Shown: positions 44,663 to 64,000 of the stretch, piece after piece
Layout: every line of letters begins with the position of its first letter
Position numbering within the stretch: position 1 is the first letter of the stretch
Assembly (NCBI GenBank): GCA_944325835.1
Contig: CALVBO010000005.1
Location: 62,001 to 126,000 of the forward strand
Reading direction: 5' to 3'
DNA: 64,000 nucleotides
DNA from: Candidatus Gastranaerophilales bacterium
Lineage (GTDB): Bacteria; Cyanobacteriota; Vampirovibrionia; Gastranaerophilales; Gastranaerophilaceae
Notes under the pieces: generated by a model
What the model was told of the DNA's origin: nothing
The model's input: only the letters and a program-made list of their open reading frames with translations
Database searches by the model: none
Translations under genes and position numbers: made by a program

Positions 44663-44714
44663 ATGAAAAAACAGAGTGTAAGTATTTGCACGGGGGGGGG
44701 GGGGGCCGGCTGAG
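44663..44714 (+). other. Out-of-frame start region of pseudopilin A (phase-OFF leader)
   Basis: AAGGATAGAAGAA supplies a ribosome site for the ATG at 44663, which reads MKKQSVSICT into the G14 tract. With 14 G the frame ends at TGA a few codons later (44712-44714). With 13 or 16 G it would continue without a stop into the pseudopilin frame. The region matches 48849 upstream of pseudopilin B (GTAAGTATTTG-ACG before the tract). Confidence 0.7.
44692..44705 (+). repeat. Poly-G tract (G14), candidate phase-variation switch
   Basis: Fourteen consecutive G between the leader ATG and the pseudopilin coding frame. Followed by CCGGCTGAGCCGG. Slipped-strand changes of one base would alter the reading frame. 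Confidence 0.9.
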
Positions 44715-44735
44715 CCGGTTCTACAATCGGAAAGC

Positions 44736-45770
44736 GTGCTCACGGACAACGTAAAATTTTATTGTCACCCTGAACTTGATTCAGGGTCTGTCCAGCAAAG
44801 CGAGCTACCGGTAACGTTGGACAGATCCCGAACTAAATTCGGGATGACGAAAAACGCAGCGTTCACAATGGCAGAGATATTATTATCCCTGACGATAATC
44901 GGCGTGGTGGCAGCGATAACATTACCGAGCCTTACCGGTAACATCAACGAGCGAACATGGAACACGCAAAGAAAAGCGCTTTATGCAAGATTTTCACAGG
45001 CCGTTTCACTAATGGATTCAATGAACGGATATTCCGATGCCGAAACTTTTGTAACAGCAGGGCTTTCTAAAGTTTTGAAAATTAATAATGTCTGCGACTA
45101 CGACCACCTCGAAGATTGCGGCATAACCTCAAAACAGATTACCGATAACGCGGGCAATCCAACGTCAATGCCAAAACTCGTCAGTGAGTTGAACCCTAAA
45201 AACACAAGTATGTCATTTACCGATACTCACGGAACAACTCCTGTGGACTATTCTTACAGTAATGTCGATACCGAAGCTGCAGCGTTTGAAACACAGAACG
45301 GCGAAAGCATTTTGGCTTTTTATAACCCTTCTTGCAGCGCAGATATGCAGGAAACTGATTACTATGGCGCCAGCAAGGTTTGTGCGAACTTTGTGTATGA
45401 TCTCAACGGAAGCAAAGGTCCGAATGCAGTCGGTAAAGATATCGGGGTAATGACAGTTTTGTATCCGTCTGACAGCCTTGTTGTCGCGCCTATGCTGTAT
45501 CCACGAAATTCCGGCGTAGAAGTAGACTTTAATGAAGCTCCAAAGGCCTGTACGGCTTTAGATGCTGAGTATCGTGTGCCAAATATAGGTGAAGTTATTT
45601 CTATGTTTTATAATAGTAAATTACTTAATATTATTGAGAGTTCGCACTATTGGTCATCAAGCCGCTACGATTCATCTAAAGCATGGAATATGAGCGGAAC
45701 AACGGGAAGAATATTTCTTGAACCAATTAGCAGTACCGGATGGAAAAAGGTTAAATGCGTCAAGCGTTAA
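44736..45770 (+). CDS. Type IV pilin-like protein A, apparently phase-OFF
   Basis: The open frame encodes a pseudopilin: the cleavage site NAA|FTMAEILLSLTIIGVV, the shared mature N-terminus (NINERTWNTQRKALYAR) and a C-terminal DUF1566/lectin-like part (RVPNIGEV, YWSSSRYDSSKAW, KCVKR). The only start in frame near the 5' end is a GTG at 44736 with no proper ribosome site; the frame is open further back into the G14 tract. I infer that the real start is the ATG at 44663, one base out of frame in this sequence. The 85-base palindromic repeat (44764-44848) is translated within the leader (CHPELDSGS, KFGMT). Paralogues at 27096 and 48991. Confidence 0.8.
   Translation: MLTDNVKFYCHPELDSGSVQQSELPVTLDRSRTKFGMTKNAAFTMAEILLSLTIIGVVAAITLPSLTGNINERTWNTQRKALYARFSQAVSLMDSMNGYSDAETFVTAGLSKVLKINNVCDYDHLEDCGITSKQITDNAGNPTSMPKLVSELNPKNTSMSFTDTHGTTPVDYSYSNVDTEAAAFETQNGESILAFYNPSCSADMQETDYYGASKVCANFVYDLNGSKGPNAVGKDIGVMTVLYPSDSLVVAPMLYPRNSGVEVDFNEAPKACTALDAEYRVPNIGEVISMFYNSKLLNIIESSHYWSSSRYDSSKAWNMSGTTGRIFLEPISSTGWKKVKCVKR
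44764..44848 (+). repeat. 85-base palindromic element (copy A), translated in pseudopilin leader
   Basis: Ends GTCA/TGAC. Hairpin 1 is ACCCTGAA-CTTGA-TTCAGGGT, hairpin 2 is ATCCCGAA-CTAAA-TTCGGGAT, and CTGTCC pairs with GGACAG around the conserved centre AGCTACCGGTAACGTTGG. A second copy of exactly the same length stands at 48938-49022, with compensatory changes in hairpin 1. Confidence 0.85.
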
Positions 45771-48848: not shown

Positions 48849-48930
48849 ATGAAAAACCGAAATGTAAGTATTTGTACGGGGGGGGGGGGGGCGTGCCTTA
48901 CCCGCAAAATTAGGTATTGAGGACACTACG
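48849..48930 (+). other. Out-of-frame start region of pseudopilin B (phase-OFF leader)
   Basis: AAGGATGGAAAGA provides a ribosome site for the ATG at 48849, which reads MKNRNVSICT into a G14 tract and then hits TGA after the tract (48918-48920). With 13 or 16 G it would join the pseudopilin frame, which is open through this region. Same design and flanks as 44663. Confidence 0.7.
48878..48891 (+). repeat. Poly-G tract (G14), candidate phase-variation switch
   Basis: Fourteen G preceded by GTAAGTATTTGTAC, almost identical to the flank of the tract at 44692 (GTAAGTATTTGCAC). Separates the ATG at 48849 from the pseudopilin frame. Confidence 0.9.
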
Positions 48931-48937
48931 TCCCCAT

Positions 48938-49022
48938 GTCATGCTGAACTTGATTCAGCATCTGTCCCATGTCGCGAGCTACCGGTAACGTTGGACAGAT
49001 CCCGAAATAAATTCGGGATGAC
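48938..49022 (+). repeat. 85-base palindromic element (copy B), translated in pseudopilin leader
   Basis: Same length, ends (GTCA/TGAC) and centre (GAGCTACCGGTAACGTTGG) as copy A. Hairpin 1 is ATGCTGAA-CTTGA-TTCAGCAT versus ACCC/GGGT in copy A, so changes occur on both arms and pairing is kept. Hairpin 2 is ATCCCGAA-ATAAA-TTCGGGAT. Confidence 0.85.
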
Positions 49023-50064
49023 ATTAAAGGAAATGACCCTTGTATGTGCCTTTACCATGGCAGACCGGCTGAGCCGGATCCATAATGGGCTGGTCGGCTT
49101 ACGGTCAGCGTTTACCATGGCCGAAATATTATTATCCCTGACGATAATCGGCGTGGTGGCCGCGATAACGCTTCCGTCACTCACGGGCAACATTAATGAA
49201 CGCACGTGGAACACGCAGAGAAAAGCTCTTTATGCACGAATGAGTCAGGCAATTGCCCTGATGCCGTCTTTGAATGGTTATGGAAAACTTTCCGGTACTA
49301 TAAGCGATGACGGTTCACAAAGTGTTACAGAGGATACAGCCGCTGAGACGTTTGTTACTGACGGACTTTCAAAAGTCTTAAAAATCAATAATATTTGCGA
49401 TAATGAACATTTAAAAGATTGCGGTTTAGCTTCTAAAATAACCAATATTAAAGGAGATTCTCTTGATTTTCCATTTGATATGCAGACCTTAAATTCCGGA
49501 ATTTTAAGCCAAAATTTTGCGGGTCACCCTTCTTATAATCAGTTAAATACGAAAGCTGCGGCTTTTGAAACACAAAACGGAGAAAGTATTGCGGTTTATT
49601 ATAATCCGAATTGCAGTATTAATCAGGCTTTTACTAATTACTGGAATTATGTGCAGCCGTTATTTTGTGCAAATTTCCTGTATGATTTGAATGGAAGTAA
49701 AGGGCCGAATACTGTTGGTAAAGATTTAGGCTTCATTACAGTTTTTTATGCTGTTGACCCTGTGGTTGTAGCTCCGGTTCCGTTGATGCAAAATTCAGCG
49801 ACCGGTGTAAGCCAGATCGCAGCAGGGAAAGAGTGTTTGAAATTCTCGGATGACAGTCGTGTACCAAATAAAGAAGAATTAGCAGCAATGTATATTAATA
49901 AAGAGCTTATTGGCAACTGGGATGCCGGAGGTTTTTATCTTTCCTCTTCAACGGATATTTATGAGGGTGCACCGGCAGCCTGGACTGTAGATATTAACCA
50001 TGGCACTATGTATAAGACCAGTTCAAGAACTCAGGGACATGCTTTGAGGTGTATTAAACGTTAA
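48991..50064 (+). CDS. Type IV pilin-like protein B, apparently phase-OFF
   Basis: Encodes a pseudopilin with SA|FTMAEILLSLTIIGVV and the same mature N-terminus as the copies at 27 and 45 kb, then a unique middle and a DUF1566/lectin-like end (RVPNKEELAAM, FYLSSSTD, LRCIKR). In-frame starts are a TTG at 48991 and ATGs at 49018 and 49033, none with a convincing ribosome site; the frame stays open back to the G14 tract, so the ATG at 48849 is the probable true start once the tract is in register. The leader has a partial duplication (CAFTMAD, then SAFTMAE) separated by the repeat-encoded RLSRIHNGLVGLRS. Confidence 0.8.
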   Translation: MDRSRNKFGMTLKEMTLVCAFTMADRLSRIHNGLVGLRSAFTMAEILLSLTIIGVVAAITLPSLTGNINERTWNTQRKALYARMSQAIALMPSLNGYGKLSGTISDDGSQSVTEDTAAETFVTDGLSKVLKINNICDNEHLKDCGLASKITNIKGDSLDFPFDMQTLNSGILSQNFAGHPSYNQLNTKAAAFETQNGESIAVYYNPNCSINQAFTNYWNYVQPLFCANFLYDLNGSKGPNTVGKDLGFITVFYAVDPVVVAPVPLMQNSATGVSQIAAGKECLKFSDDSRVPNKEELAAMYINKELIGNWDAGGFYLSSSTDIYEGAPAAWTVDINHGTMYKTSSRTQGHALRCIKR

Positions 50065-59029: not shown

Positions 59030-59428
59030 ATGCGCAGACGTGATATCATAAGCGGTGTTCTAACAATAGTGCTACTGGCGTTGACCTGTAAGCATTGGCT
59101 TATATTTAAACCAATGCCTGTGAGTTTTCTTGTAAAGGGCAACGGTAGTTACACATTTACGGTTCAGTTAAATAAGAAGAATAATAACGAATTTAAAAAA
59201 ATAAAGCAGTGTACGATAAAGAAACATCTAACCGGTGGTTATGAGAAATGTGAATGCAAAATAGACAGGGTACGTTTCCCCAAACGCTTAAGACTCGTTG
59301 TAAACACTTCCGACGTATCTCCTATAGAAATAAAAGACATAACGCTGAAAAACGGGAAATATAAACTACCTTCAGTATCCGAATTTGCGTTGCATAACGC
59401 CCTACCGGGGGGGGGGGGGATATCTTAA
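59030..59428 (+). CDS. N-terminal membrane-anchor / beta-domain protein, upstream half of split SGNH protein C
   Basis: A 132-residue protein: basic start MRRRDIIS, one membrane helix (about 8-22), then a beta-rich domain (GNGSYTFTVQLNKK, CTIKKHLTGGYEKCECKI, RLRLVVNTSD, IEIKDITLKNG) and an end NALP-GGGG-IS created by a G13 tract. The stop overlaps the next ATG (TAATG). One more G (14) would remove the stop and fuse the frame to the next gene. The copy at 62115 is fused and a third copy starts at 63643. GAGGAGAG precedes the ATG. The domain family is not recognised. Confidence 0.8.
   Translation: MRRRDIISGVLTIVLLALTCKHWLIFKPMPVSFLVKGNGSYTFTVQLNKKNNNEFKKIKQCTIKKHLTGGYEKCECKIDRVRFPKRLRLVVNTSDVSPIEIKDITLKNGKYKLPSVSEFALHNALPGGGGIS
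59407..59419 (+). repeat. Poly-G tract (G13), candidate fusion switch
   Basis: Thirteen G just before the stop of the 59030 gene. With 13 G the two genes are separate; 14 or 11 G fuse them; 12 G ends at a TAG a few codons later. Confidence 0.9.
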
Positions 59429-60699
59429 TGCCGTCCTCTAGCACATTCACTCTGACTTATAACGAAAAATTGTCTGTTCGCTCCGGTATTAAATTTGAAG
59501 CAATGACGTTTATTATCATTGCGGTTTTAGGTTATTTACTGTCATATAAATTGACTTCATATCTTGCGGATTTTAAGGTTTTAAGTAATTATTCGCGTCT
59601 GGATATATTGTTTTTGCTGGTTTGTACCATACTGATGTTTCTCCCTATGAGTCATATTACAAATGATGTAAAATCAATTGCGGAAAACAGAGAGCTTGCA
59701 AAATGGGTGCCGCTTATCAACAAGGATAAAATAAATTATAATTTTGGAAAAGATTTTGATAACTGGTTTAATGACAGATATAATTTCAGACGGGATTATG
59801 TAAACTTATATGGCTGGTTGCGTTATTATTTCTCAAAATATTCTTGTATTAATAATGGGGTATTATTAAATAAACAAAATCACTGGTTTCTAATTCTGAA
59901 ATTTCATAAAGCAGCACAAAAATTATTTACGCCGGAACAACAAAGAGTTTTCTCTGAGGATATTAAAATTTTGAGTGAATATTGTGATAAAACTCGTAAG
60001 AAGCTGTATTTTGTGATTATTCCGGAAAAAGGAATCTTATATAAAGATGAAATTTATGAAGGGTTGATTTCAAATCCGTTGAAAGTTTATGATCCGGTGC
60101 CTGATATTATTAAAAATGTTTATACGGCATCTGGAGTTGAAATTTTATATCCATATGATGAATTGATGAAGGCTAAGAAAGAACACCTTGTATTTTTTAA
60201 GCACGATCATCATTTGAATGATGTTGGTTATTTAGTGGTATTCAATTCTTTGATTAAAAGAATGAATGCTGACGGAGTACCTTTCCCGCAATTGCGGGAG
60301 TGTGATTTCACTGTGCAGGAAACTAATAAGGCAAGAAGCGGCAGTCGCTTTTCAATGGGGTCCGGTTTCTGTACATTAAATATCTGGGACGAAACATTAT
60401 TAGATGAAACATATAAATTTTATACTCCAAAGTGTGAACTCCCGCTGCAGAAGAAAGTTCTTATTATAGGGGATTCTTATGTAAATATGACAAAACCTTT
60501 GTTTTTTAATATGTTTCAAACAGTGGATTCTATATTCGTTCGCGGGCTGGCTCAAGCAGAACGAAAAGATGTATTAAGAAAAAATTTGGATTTGTTGAAA
60601 AAGGCTGATGTCGTTGTTATGATGTTTTCTGCAATTCAACCTGAGATGCTGCTGGATATGGATTTTGATATATTGAGAGATGCTAGGAAGGAGCAATAA
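59428..60699 (+). CDS. AlgX/AlgJ-like SGNH O-acetyltransferase protein C
   Basis: A 423-residue protein. Two membrane helices near the N-terminus (FEAMTFIIIAVLGYLLSYKL; RLDILFLLVCTILMF) are followed by a periplasmic SGNH-hydrolase domain related to alginate O-acetyltransferases: ENRELAKW, FVIIPEKGILY, the D-H pair in KHDHHLNDVG (about 258-262), and the nucleophile block IIGDSYV (about 345). It should accept acetyl groups from the MBOAT partner and move them to a surface polysaccharide. Its start (ATG at 59428) overlaps the previous stop, so translation here depends on re-initiation unless the G-tract fuses the frames. Confidence 0.85.
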   Translation: MPSSSTFTLTYNEKLSVRSGIKFEAMTFIIIAVLGYLLSYKLTSYLADFKVLSNYSRLDILFLLVCTILMFLPMSHITNDVKSIAENRELAKWVPLINKDKINYNFGKDFDNWFNDRYNFRRDYVNLYGWLRYYFSKYSCINNGVLLNKQNHWFLILKFHKAAQKLFTPEQQRVFSEDIKILSEYCDKTRKKLYFVIIPEKGILYKDEIYEGLISNPLKVYDPVPDIIKNVYTASGVEILYPYDELMKAKKEHLVFFKHDHHLNDVGYLVVFNSLIKRMNADGVPFPQLRECDFTVQETNKARSGSRFSMGSGFCTLNIWDETLLDETYKFYTPKCELPLQKKVLIIGDSYVNMTKPLFFNMFQTVDSIFVRGLAQAERKDVLRKNLDLLKKADVVVMMFSAIQPEMLLDMDFDILRDARKEQ

Positions 60700-62102
60700 T
60701 GTTATTTTCATCAATGACTTTTGTTTACATGTTTTTACCGATTGTGTGTACACTTTATTTGATTTCTAAAAAAGAATTGCACAATCCGATTTTACTTATT
60801 GCAAGTATAATTTTTTATGCGTGGGGAGAACCTAAATATCTTGCTATTATGCTTCTTACAATACTTGTCAATTTTTATGGTGCAAAGATTGTTGAGAGGT
60901 TTAAGGAAACCGGCAGAAATGCTAAAATCCCTTTGGTTTTGACTATATGTATTAACCTCGGTTCCCTGATTTATTTTAAGTATTTTAACTTTTTAATTGA
61001 AAATATTAATGGAATTTTTCATTCGCACATTGATCTGCTTCATATTGTAATGCCTATTGGTATTTCATTTTATACATTTCAGGCGTTATCGTATGTGGTG
61101 GATGTTTATCGCGGGGAGTGTAAGGCGCAGCAGGATGTTTATAAACTTGCACTTTATATCTGCCTTTTCCCTCAATTAATCGCCGGTCCGATTGTTAAAT
61201 ACCATGATGTAGCGGATCAGATTGACAACCGTGATGTGAATTTTGAAAAAGTAGTCTTTGGGACAAAACGTTTTATTGTGGGTTTATCAAAGAAAATGCT
61301 TCTGGCAAATACAATGGGAGCTATTGCCGATAAAATTTTTGCGCAGGCACCGGATACCTTTTCTCCGTTGATTGCGTGGGTGGGGAGTATTGCGTATTCT
61401 TTGCAGTTGTTCTTTGATTTTTCAGGTTATTCCGATATGGCAATCGGTCTGGGGCTTATTTTCGGATTCCATTTCTTAGAAAACTTTAATTATCCTTATA
61501 TATCCAAATCTATTACGGAATTTTGGCGCAGATGGCATATTTCACTGTCCACCTGGTTTAAACAATATGTGTATATTTCGCTTGGCGGAAACAGATCCGG
61601 TAAATGGAAAACAATAAGAAATTTGGGGATAGTTTTTCTTTTGACAGGTATCTGGCATGGTGCGGCGTGGAATTTTGTTATCTGGGGCGCATGGAACGGA
61701 TTCTTTATAATTTTAGAAAAGCTAACCGGCTGGCACGAAGAAAAGCAACACCGTTGGCAAAGAGCTTTGCAGCACCTTTATACGATTCTTGTTTTTGTAA
61801 TAGGCTGGGTTATGTTCAGAGCCGATAATATGGCCTATGCGTGGACGTATATTAAAAATATGTTTGGTTTGGTAAAGGTCCACGATGTAATTTATGCACT
61901 CCCGTATTACGTTGATAATTTCGAGATTATAATTTTTGTGGCGGCATTTATTTGTTGTACGCCGTTATGCGGGAAAATGCTGCAGCAGGAAAATAAGATT
62001 ATAAAAGCTTTTGTAAATTTATGGCTTATAGTATTGTTGGTATTGTCAACAGCGACAATTGCTGCATCAACTTATAATCCGTTTATTTATTTCAGATTTT
62101 AG
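60699..62102 (+). CDS. MBOAT family O-acyltransferase (AlgI/DltB-like)
   Basis: A 467-residue polytopic membrane protein. MLFSSMTFVYMFLPIVCTLY, FYAWGEPKYLAIML, MPIGISFYTFQALSYVVDVY, FPQLIAGPIVKYHDVADQI, KSITEFWRRWHISLSTWFKQ and the active-site histidine in LTGIWHGAAWNFVIWG (about residue 320) are the AlgI pattern. It takes acetyl from a cytoplasmic donor across the membrane to SGNH partners for O-acetylation of an exopolysaccharide or LPS glycan. It shares a base with the preceding gene and lies between two SGNH genes. No G-tract inside. Confidence 0.95.
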   Translation: MLFSSMTFVYMFLPIVCTLYLISKKELHNPILLIASIIFYAWGEPKYLAIMLLTILVNFYGAKIVERFKETGRNAKIPLVLTICINLGSLIYFKYFNFLIENINGIFHSHIDLLHIVMPIGISFYTFQALSYVVDVYRGECKAQQDVYKLALYICLFPQLIAGPIVKYHDVADQIDNRDVNFEKVVFGTKRFIVGLSKKMLLANTMGAIADKIFAQAPDTFSPLIAWVGSIAYSLQLFFDFSGYSDMAIGLGLIFGFHFLENFNYPYISKSITEFWRRWHISLSTWFKQYVYISLGGNRSGKWKTIRNLGIVFLLTGIWHGAAWNFVIWGAWNGFFIILEKLTGWHEEKQHRWQRALQHLYTILVFVIGWVMFRADNMAYAWTYIKNMFGLVKVHDVIYALPYYVDNFEIIIFVAAFICCTPLCGKMLQQENKIIKAFVNLWLIVLLVLSTATIAASTYNPFIYFRF

Positions 62103-62114
62103 AGCGGGGGTAAG

Positions 62115-63524
62115 ATGCGTAAAAGAACTATAATAAGTATTATATTAGTTTTAGTAATCTTAGGTTTAAGTCATAATGCCTGGCTGACGATAAGGCCTAA
62201 GCCGCAAAGTACTGTGACCTCTATTCGGGGGGGGGGGGGGAGTTCCTCAACCGAAATAAACAGGCTTTTGACATTGCGCACCCGTGTGAGTATCAAATTT
62301 GATGCAATGATATTTATAATAATTGCTATCCTCGGATTTATGCTGTCATATAAATTAACCTCATATTTAGCGGATTTTAAAGTAGAGAAAAAATATTCGC
62401 GTCTGGATATATTGTTTTTAGCCGCCTGTGCAGTATTGATATTTCTCCCAATGAGTCATATCTCTGACGCAAAAAAATCCGAGGCCGAGAACCGTAATCT
62501 TGCGGTTTGGAAACCGTTTATTGATAAAAATGGCCGGATAAACTATAGCTTTGGGCGGGATTTTGACAGTTGGTTTAGTGATAGATTTAATATGCGTGAA
62601 GCTCTGGTTCAATACTATTATAAAGGTTTGGCAAATATAAGCTTTGATTTTGTGAGAACTAAAAATGGTTATTATTATAAGAAAAACGGCTGGATGTTTT
62701 ATTCCTCGGCGCTAAATGAGTTCGGACCTATTAATTATAAATTTTTTGATAAATATATAAAAAATCTGGTTCGTTTTAATCAATGGTTGGCAGAAAGGAA
62801 TATTAAATTATATGTGGTCATTATCCCCTCAAAGGAAGTTATTCGCAAAGAAGAAAATAAGTGCATAAATATAAATAGGCGTGAAAGAGCCGCTTATTTT
62901 ATGAATTATTTGAAAGAGAAGAATCTTGATTTGAATGTTACATATTATTATGACGATTTTAGACGTCTACGCGATAAAGATTCTGTCTTTTATAAAACTG
63001 ACCATCATATAACCGATTTTACCGTTTATGAACTTTATAAAGATATCATTAATAACATGGCTCGTGACTTTAAGGAATTATCGGTCGCGCCTGAAGATAA
63101 ATTTAATATTTATGAACGTACATTATGCAGATATAGTGAACACAGAACATTTGACGGCGGCTGTAACTATAAAAACGGAAATGTTCATGATGAAAAACTA
63201 TTGATGCCAAAATATACCTATTATGATTATATTCATCCTGAAGAGATAGCAATAGAGCAAAAAAATATTTTCCATTATATACACACTAATAAAAATAAAA
63301 AATATAAATTATTTTTGTTAGGTGATTCTTTTGAAGAAAGTCTTACTTACTTTTTGAATACAAGTTTTTATCAGATAGACAAACACAGACGAAGATTTAA
63401 TATTAAAAACAAAAAAGGTGAGCTTGCAGAGTATGAAAAAGCAATAACTGATTTTAAACCGGATATGGTATTATTATTGTTCTATAGTCCATCTCTAAGC
63501 TGGTTGGAAAAATTGTATAATTGA
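62115..63524 (+). CDS. AlgX/AlgJ-like SGNH O-acetyltransferase protein D, fused (phase-ON) form
   Basis: A 469-residue protein. The first 38 residues (MRKRTIISIILVLVILGLSH...) match the anchor of the 59030 gene but the beta-domain is missing, then GGGG encoded by a G14 tract leads into helices like those of protein C (KFDAMIFIIIAILGFMLSYK) and an SGNH domain with ENRNLAVW, VVIIPSKEVI, KTDHHITD (about 295) and LLGDSFEES (about 402-410). In this copy the frame is continuous through the tract. With 13 G it ends at TAA; with 15 G it ends at TGA. Preceded by a G-rich ribosome site, 12 bases after the MBOAT gene. Confidence 0.85.
   Translation: MRKRTIISIILVLVILGLSHNAWLTIRPKPQSTVTSIRGGGGSSSTEINRLLTLRTRVSIKFDAMIFIIIAILGFMLSYKLTSYLADFKVEKKYSRLDILFLAACAVLIFLPMSHISDAKKSEAENRNLAVWKPFIDKNGRINYSFGRDFDSWFSDRFNMREALVQYYYKGLANISFDFVRTKNGYYYKKNGWMFYSSALNEFGPINYKFFDKYIKNLVRFNQWLAERNIKLYVVIIPSKEVIRKEENKCININRRERAAYFMNYLKEKNLDLNVTYYYDDFRRLRDKDSVFYKTDHHITDFTVYELYKDIINNMARDFKELSVAPEDKFNIYERTLCRYSEHRTFDGGCNYKNGNVHDEKLLMPKYTYYDYIHPEEIAIEQKNIFHYIHTNKNKKYKLFLLGDSFEESLTYFLNTSFYQIDKHRRRFNIKNKKGELAEYEKAITDFKPDMVLLLFYSPSLSWLEKLYN
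62227..62240 (+). repeat. Poly-G tract (G14) inside the SGNH gene, in-frame
   Basis: Fourteen G encoding the four-glycine joint between anchor and second helix pair. Equivalent position to the G13 tract at 59407. Confidence 0.9.
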
Positions 63525-63592: not shown

Positions 63593-63642
63593 CTTTGCAT
63601 AGTTTAAATTTTTATGATAGTCTTTATAGAAGGAATTTAATT

Positions 63643-64000
63643 ATGCGCAGAAGAGATATAATAAGTTTAATATTAACGATATTATTGCTTATAGTTACGA
63701 GCCGGCACTGGTTAATCCTCAAGCCGTTGCCTGTAAATATTGTGGCAAGAGGTAATGGAGATTACACTTTTGTAGTTCAGTTAAACAAGAAAGACAGTGC
63801 TGATTTTAAAAAAGTAAAACAGTGTGTAGTAAGAAAACATTTAAGCGGTGAATATAAAACTTGCAGTTGTGAGATAAGCCGAGTGCACGGTGCAAAGCGC
63901 TTAAAATTAATAGTGAATAAGACCCCGTCTTCATCTCCTATCGATATAAAAGAAATAAGTTTAAAGAATGGTCGGTGTAAGTTATCCGCATTTGACCTGA
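63643..64000 (+). CDS. Membrane-anchor / beta-domain protein, third copy (runs off the window)
   Basis: Starts MRRRDIISLILTILLL and continues with GNGDYTFVVQLNKKD, KQCVVRKHLSGEYKTCSCEI, and IDIKEISLKNGRCKL, matching the 59030 gene almost residue by residue. It continues past base 64000, so it cannot be seen whether it carries a G-tract and fuses to another SGNH domain, which its similarity predicts. AGAAGGA precedes the ATG. Confidence 0.8.
   Translation, partial: MRRRDIISLILTILLLIVTSRHWLILKPLPVNIVARGNGDYTFVVQLNKKDSADFKKVKQCVVRKHLSGEYKTCSCEISRVHGAKRLKLIVNKTPSSSPIDIKEISLKNGRCKLSAFDL

Follow-up and report, generated by a model that had tools for sequence, protein, structure and literature searches.

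A poly-G tract as a probable translational switch in an SGNH gene of Gastranaerophilales

A run of 14 G residues near the start of an SGNH gene in a gut bacterium of the Gastranaerophilales is read in frame, and comparison of sequences makes it very probable that the run acts as a translational ON/OFF contingency switch operated by slipped-strand mispairing. The gene lies in the window, by which we mean the whole 64,000-nucleotide stretch of DNA analysed here (C5:62001-126000 of the genome G000, a 1.95 Mb assembly in 44 contigs); all genes, tracts, flanks and joints given below with window positions are on the forward strand. The switch is apparently a member of a very large and seemingly undescribed contingency system, and the Gastranaerophilales, a poorly known gut group, probably vary their surface by random poly-G switching.

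Contingency loci built on homopolymeric poly-G or poly-C tracts have been described in Neisseria meningitidis (PMC5084427), Campylobacter and Helicobacter (H. canadensis, PMC2823697). The loci described here resemble them in having an intragenic G-tract near the gene start, frame toggling by single bases and an over-representation of surface genes. They differ in that the host is a gut-dwelling, non-photosynthetic relative of cyanobacteria which carries MutS and MutL, that one leader-tract module is repeated before at least 47 prepilins with frames skewed to one past ON, and that a 3' micro-flank is common to unrelated genes. A search of open-licence texts for phase variation in Gastranaerophilales returned nothing relevant.

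The observations suggest that the Gastranaerophilales, common in the gut but mostly uncultured, have a poly-G contingency system of genome-wide extent. Its scale, with about 90 tracts in 1.95 Mb and at least 47 switchable prepilins, is comparable to that of the classic pathogens, with mismatch repair retained, and suggests that surface randomisation is not limited to pathogens, an idea testable in existing gut metagenome reads. Moreover, the SGNH locus would constitute a natural multi-enzyme acylation switch, in which one acyl supplier serves several switchable transferases.

The tract and its reading frame

The gene, copy b of three SGNH copies in a run, extends from 62115 to 63524 and encodes 469 aa. 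It is a short form, composed of a TM1 anchor, a GGGG linker, a TM2-TM3 head and a PatB/AlgX-like catalytic domain, and is ON in the assembly. The G14 tract, at 62227-62240, lies in the low-confidence TM1-TM2 loop and is read as GGGG, residues 39-42. When its length was changed in silico, 11, 14 and 17 G gave proteins of 468, 469 and 470 aa, as against 61, 47, 62 and 48 aa for 12, 13, 15 and 16 G; a change of one base in either direction puts the gene out of frame and into early stops. A preliminary description of this DNA had claimed just this, an in-frame run of 14 G with stops soon after 13 or 15 G, and the frames bear it out. Such a coding homopolymer is well above chance: nine-G matches number 23 in the window against 0.11 expected from shuffles, and of its G-runs of at least six, one has 6 Gs, one has 13 and three have 14, lengths of 7-12 being absent.

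The tract would be expected to gain or lose single Gs through slipped-strand mispairing, with 11, 14 or 17 G giving the full membrane-anchored SGNH transferase and other lengths a short anchor piece only. Switching in cells may be presumed on this basis, and it may be slower than in Campylobacter because MutS and MutL are present. The earlier view of the tract as a mutation hotspot and phase switch is strongly supported by the genome-wide G-runs and the ON and OFF frames, and is further backed by differences in tract length and position among relatives and by the intact frames found behind OFF tracts.

An MBOAT-SGNH acyltransferase locus

Upstream of copy b lie copy a (59030-60699), a long form with a beta domain, and the gene for an MBOAT acyltransferase partner (PF03062; 60699-62102); downstream, copy c, a long form that is ON, begins at 63640 and continues past the window end at 64000, its G14 lying just beyond (L028:7012-7025). 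The frame of copy a is broken at a G13 tract (59407-59419): as assembled it meets a stop after 132 aa, while 14 or 11 G would yield about 556 aa. Copy a is OFF, yet its downstream body (59428-60699, 423 aa) is uninterrupted. The run therefore consists of G13 OFF, G14 ON and G14 ON copies, with all three bodies complete.

Several lines of evidence converge on the identity of these genes. Pfam recognises an AlgX-type SGNH domain in the copy b protein (ALGX, E=6.9e-9, above the cut-off) and MBOAT in the product of 60699-62102 (E=3.5e-36). A profile of nine SGNH bodies matched Bacillus cereus PatB1 in the PDB (5v8d, E=1e-19), as well as AlgX and AlgJ; the profile was required, since phmmer with the single copy b protein found no match in the PDB. 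An AlphaFold model of copy b (mean pLDDT 77, rising above 90 over much of the catalytic domain) contains a helix at 3-18, a low-confidence loop at 28-59 holding the GGGG, helices at 64-90 and 96-114 and then the SGNH domain, and Foldseek matched this model to a DHHW-family protein, PatB1 and AlgJ/AlgX. Across 31 sequences His298 and Ser405 never vary, nor, in an alignment of nine, does the Asp two residues ahead of His298, so that copy b unites an SGNH fold with Asp-x-His and Ser. The MBOAT partner carries a conserved His region (GIWHGAAWN) and ends, immediately before its stop codon, in FIYFRF, which fits the tyrosine motif FXYXXF described as a C-terminal acyl shuttle for PatA/DltX (PMC12148441); the same C-terminal motif adjoins SGNH genes in relatives. 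Domains, profile, fold, catalytic residues and MBOAT motif therefore identify an MBOAT-SGNH acyltransferase locus.

Acyl transfer, an acetyl activity and an envelope glycan as target can be predicted for the locus. The MBOAT would charge its C-terminal tyrosine with an acyl group and hand this to the SGNH bodies, which would in turn place it on the glycan. With one MBOAT for three SGNH copies, each having its own tract, the cell could pick acylation patterns at random.

Known MBOAT-SGNH pairs include PatA/PatB, AlgI/AlgJ/AlgX and DltB/DltD (mechanism: PMC12148441). As in these pairs, the present locus has an MBOAT with a C-terminal FXYXXF that neighbours an SGNH protein containing D-x-H and Ser, and the PatB1 and AlgJ folds match. 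It departs from them in having three SGNH copies per MBOAT; three membrane helices are predicted at the N-terminus, the long form has an additional beta domain, and every SGNH copy carries a poly-G tract of its own. Phase-variable glycan O-acetyltransferases exist in Neisseria meningitidis, and stochastic control of glycan O-acetylation would be the common feature; host and layout differ, given that here several alternative transferases would be switched around one acyl supplier.

The genome-wide set and the predicted prepilin switches

G000 holds 95 G-runs of at least nine and about 90 poly-G loci. In the stretches around tracts, from which the details were taken, lengths peak at 12-14, interior tracts are mostly 11-15, and the Gs lie on the locally G-rich strand in 53 of 59 tracts. 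Most of the loci precede prepilin or pilus genes. At least 47 are built as one module, in which a Shine-Dalgarno sequence and a leader of about 10 aa come before the tract, and an extended leader and the prepilin start FTMAEILLSLTIIGVVAAITLP after it; several of these prepilins bear an Lcl_C or N_methyl domain. The leader precedes the site of prepilin cleavage, and the tract should therefore leave the mature pilin unaltered. Two such switches fall within the window, at 44663-45770 (leader ATG 44663, G14 44692-44705, then the prepilin ORF) and at 48849-50064 (leader ATG 48849, G14 48878-48891, then the prepilin ORF), both OFF and one G past ON. A palindromic repeat, read as HPELDSGS..., is inserted in prepilin extended leaders (44766-44855 and 48939-49024 in the window).

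The frame states of 47 pilin loci are strongly uneven, in that 10 are ON, 33 lie one G beyond ON and the remaining 4 occupy the third frame (chi-square p=3e-7). This skew holds whatever the leader phase, and leaders of different phase differ in modal tract length (13 or 14); frame, not length, is therefore what the loci have in common. The one-past-ON frame encodes an LNR peptide, which was considered as a functional OFF peptide and dismissed, since in pilins it is the LTG prepilin cleavage site read out of frame. Among 52 complete prepilins, the first 50 residues are 96-100% identical while the DNA there is 79% identical, which shows purifying selection, though most are OFF in the assembly; gene conversion is not needed to account for the identical heads, the DNA being just 79% identical.

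The mismatch-repair genes of G000 are intact, with MutS1 (an 874-aa frame), MutS2 and MutL all found, and they are likewise present in G005, a tract-free member of the genus, so that loss of mismatch repair was rejected as the cause of the tracts. In another genome, a partial MutS_V match (G053:C1:383791-384003) sits inside an open frame reported as 24,107 aa long, either a gene of enormous size or a quirk of the frame. A G11 tract is also found in a phage tail-fibre-like gene (Gp53-like_C; L052:1732-2370 and upstream), followed by ATCTTAATGCC as in SGNH copy a; this gene is possibly a phase-variable prophage fibre.

Tracts in relatives

The relatives matched by protein are Candidatus Gastranaerophilales / Melainabacteria MAGs. 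Members of the genus carry about 87-132 G-runs of at least nine each, with none in G005, whose SGNH copies are short and tract-free; other genera carry 0 to 128 such runs, and their leaders and flanks have sequences of their own. The preferred tract length also differs by genus: in G027 nearly all are exactly G10 followed by CANNSGC, in G009 most are G10-G11, and the module of G019 reads TCACACAAAC-G10-TAAACCGCTC.

Within the SGNH family, three sites hold tracts: the anchor (G12, G14, with G15 at a contig end in G006), the part following the beta domain (G13, G14) and the interior of the beta domain (G8, G11, G12, G13). Lengths are 12, 13 and 14 in the genus, apart from the 15 at the contig end in G006, and G8-G13 elsewhere, and both ON and OFF members occur. 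Tract length therefore varies among related alleles, both paralogues and species, giving predicted ON and OFF states. The G13 of copy a recurs in another MAG, on a contig that is 98.9% identical, with no length change between the two, which counts against the switch. In four relatives (L120, L122, L127, L132) the coding strand has C10-C11 (PPP) in the same beta-domain loop where others have G11-G12 (GGG), and these appear to be convergent homopolymers on opposite strands. That tracts in this family arose independently points to selection for the ability to switch. One sequence that groups with Gastranaerophilales in SGNH gene and locus, L114 (JAMPIJ010000005.1), is titled as a Fusobacterium sp. 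MAG and is probably a mislabelled bin.

A 3' flank shared between unrelated genes

Immediately 3' of the copy b tract, the micro-flank AGTTCCTCAACCG (62241-62253) matches a pilin tract flank at 12 of 13 bases, and the flank of its relative in the sister species G002 does so at 13 of 13. Among non-pilin tracts of the genus, a CTYANCMG-like motif about 4 bases 3' of the tract is found in 20 of 56 (some of them orthologues), against 0.14 in shuffles, and no enrichment of this motif was seen on the 5' side of the same tracts. After removal of near-duplicates, the 3' flanks of 46 non-pilin tracts are nearer to pilin flanks than are the flanks of short G-runs (p=3.5e-11, an optimistic value, as the pilin flank set was picked after viewing the lists). 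Selection for stop codons does not convincingly explain the motif, since CTTAAC and CTCAAC interchange and CTTAAC alone contains a stop.

The shared flank could reflect copying from tract to tract or some function of the flank itself. One speculative and rather doubtful route for the spread of poly-G within the genus begins with replication stalling in a G-tract: the growing strand would move to a second G-tract, be extended there by 10-14 bases of 3' flank and then go back, whereby unrelated genes would gain a tract-plus-flank seed and become phase-variable. Spread by such copying would explain why the pilin-like flank is on the 3' side alone, including in copy b and its G002 relative.

Alternative explanations

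The preliminary description also took the tract for a recombination joint at which SGNH bodies can trade anchor parts. It noted correctly that the beta domain of the copy at 59030 is absent from the gene at 62115; its statement that the two share the same anchor start is wrong, the anchors of b and a being 46% identical. That the tract is mainly such a joint is quite unlikely. On comparison by identity alone, the anchors (about 30 aa) are 66-90% identical within the long form (a, c, G002a and G002b; a and c 70%), 66-83% within the short form (b, G002c and G003) and 36-46% between the forms, and the head just 3' of the tract shows the same split (a, G002a and G002b against b, G002c, G003 and G006), with c falling in neither group. 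Anchor and head are thus concordant across the tract, where a joint would give discordant phylogenies, and the discordance begins about 350 bp downstream. Moreover, the short form is the sole SGNH copy found in G003, with a tract, and in L123 and L130, without one, so the lack of the beta domain in copy b is not due to a swap at the tract; together with the concordance, these single-copy loci led us to reject the idea that recombination at the tract deleted or replaced the beta domain in G000.

The gene does have a mosaic structure. At an approximate joint between the conserved head and the divergent catalytic tail (62585-62620), paralogue identity passes from 60-90% to 11-34%, the drop near 62590, where the catalytic domain begins, being from about 75% to 11-27%. 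In AU tests the head data reject the clade of the tail (p=0.002), and the tail data reject a short-form clade (p=0.013) and a genus clade (p=2e-13); a long-form clade is not rejected by the tail, whose branches are long (p=0.10). Either heads and bodies have been reshuffled at this joint or the tails evolve extremely fast. Exchange among SGNH bodies does take place, as seen in G002, where copies a and b agree at every base of a stretch of about 470 bp that contains the tract, their identity beyond it being about 70%. This block, which speaks for recombination around the tract, is a gene conversion that includes the tract and ends far from it on both sides. The proposal of a joint thus fails at the scale of domains, where gene conversion and the downstream head/tail joint take its place; exchange among bodies stands, and at the scale of 10-14 bp the SGNH and pilin tracts do appear to have 3' flanks in common, which speaks for a joint.

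Long G-runs are generally prone to slippage, and RNA polymerase or ribosomes slipping on G13-G14 might yield mixed frames from any allele at a low, constant level regardless of DNA length. The one-past-ON frame of 33 of the 47 pilin loci would be usable by a fixed frameshift of this kind, but relatives and paralogues occupy all three frames and SGNH copies b and c are exactly ON, which makes slippage an unlikely substitute for switching at the DNA level. Far less probable still is that the runs are artefacts of sequencing or assembly. Contig ends do cluster at tracts, 15 lying within 150 bp of one against 0.64 expected, as may result from length heterogeneity, in which case they are indirect evidence for switching, or from repeated flanks, and some terminal runs look unreal (C17 G30, C6 G17). 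Against this, many independent genomes carry similar tracts in homologous places with codon-consistent flanks, and interior tract lengths are tight; artefact was accordingly rejected as an explanation for the presence of the tracts.
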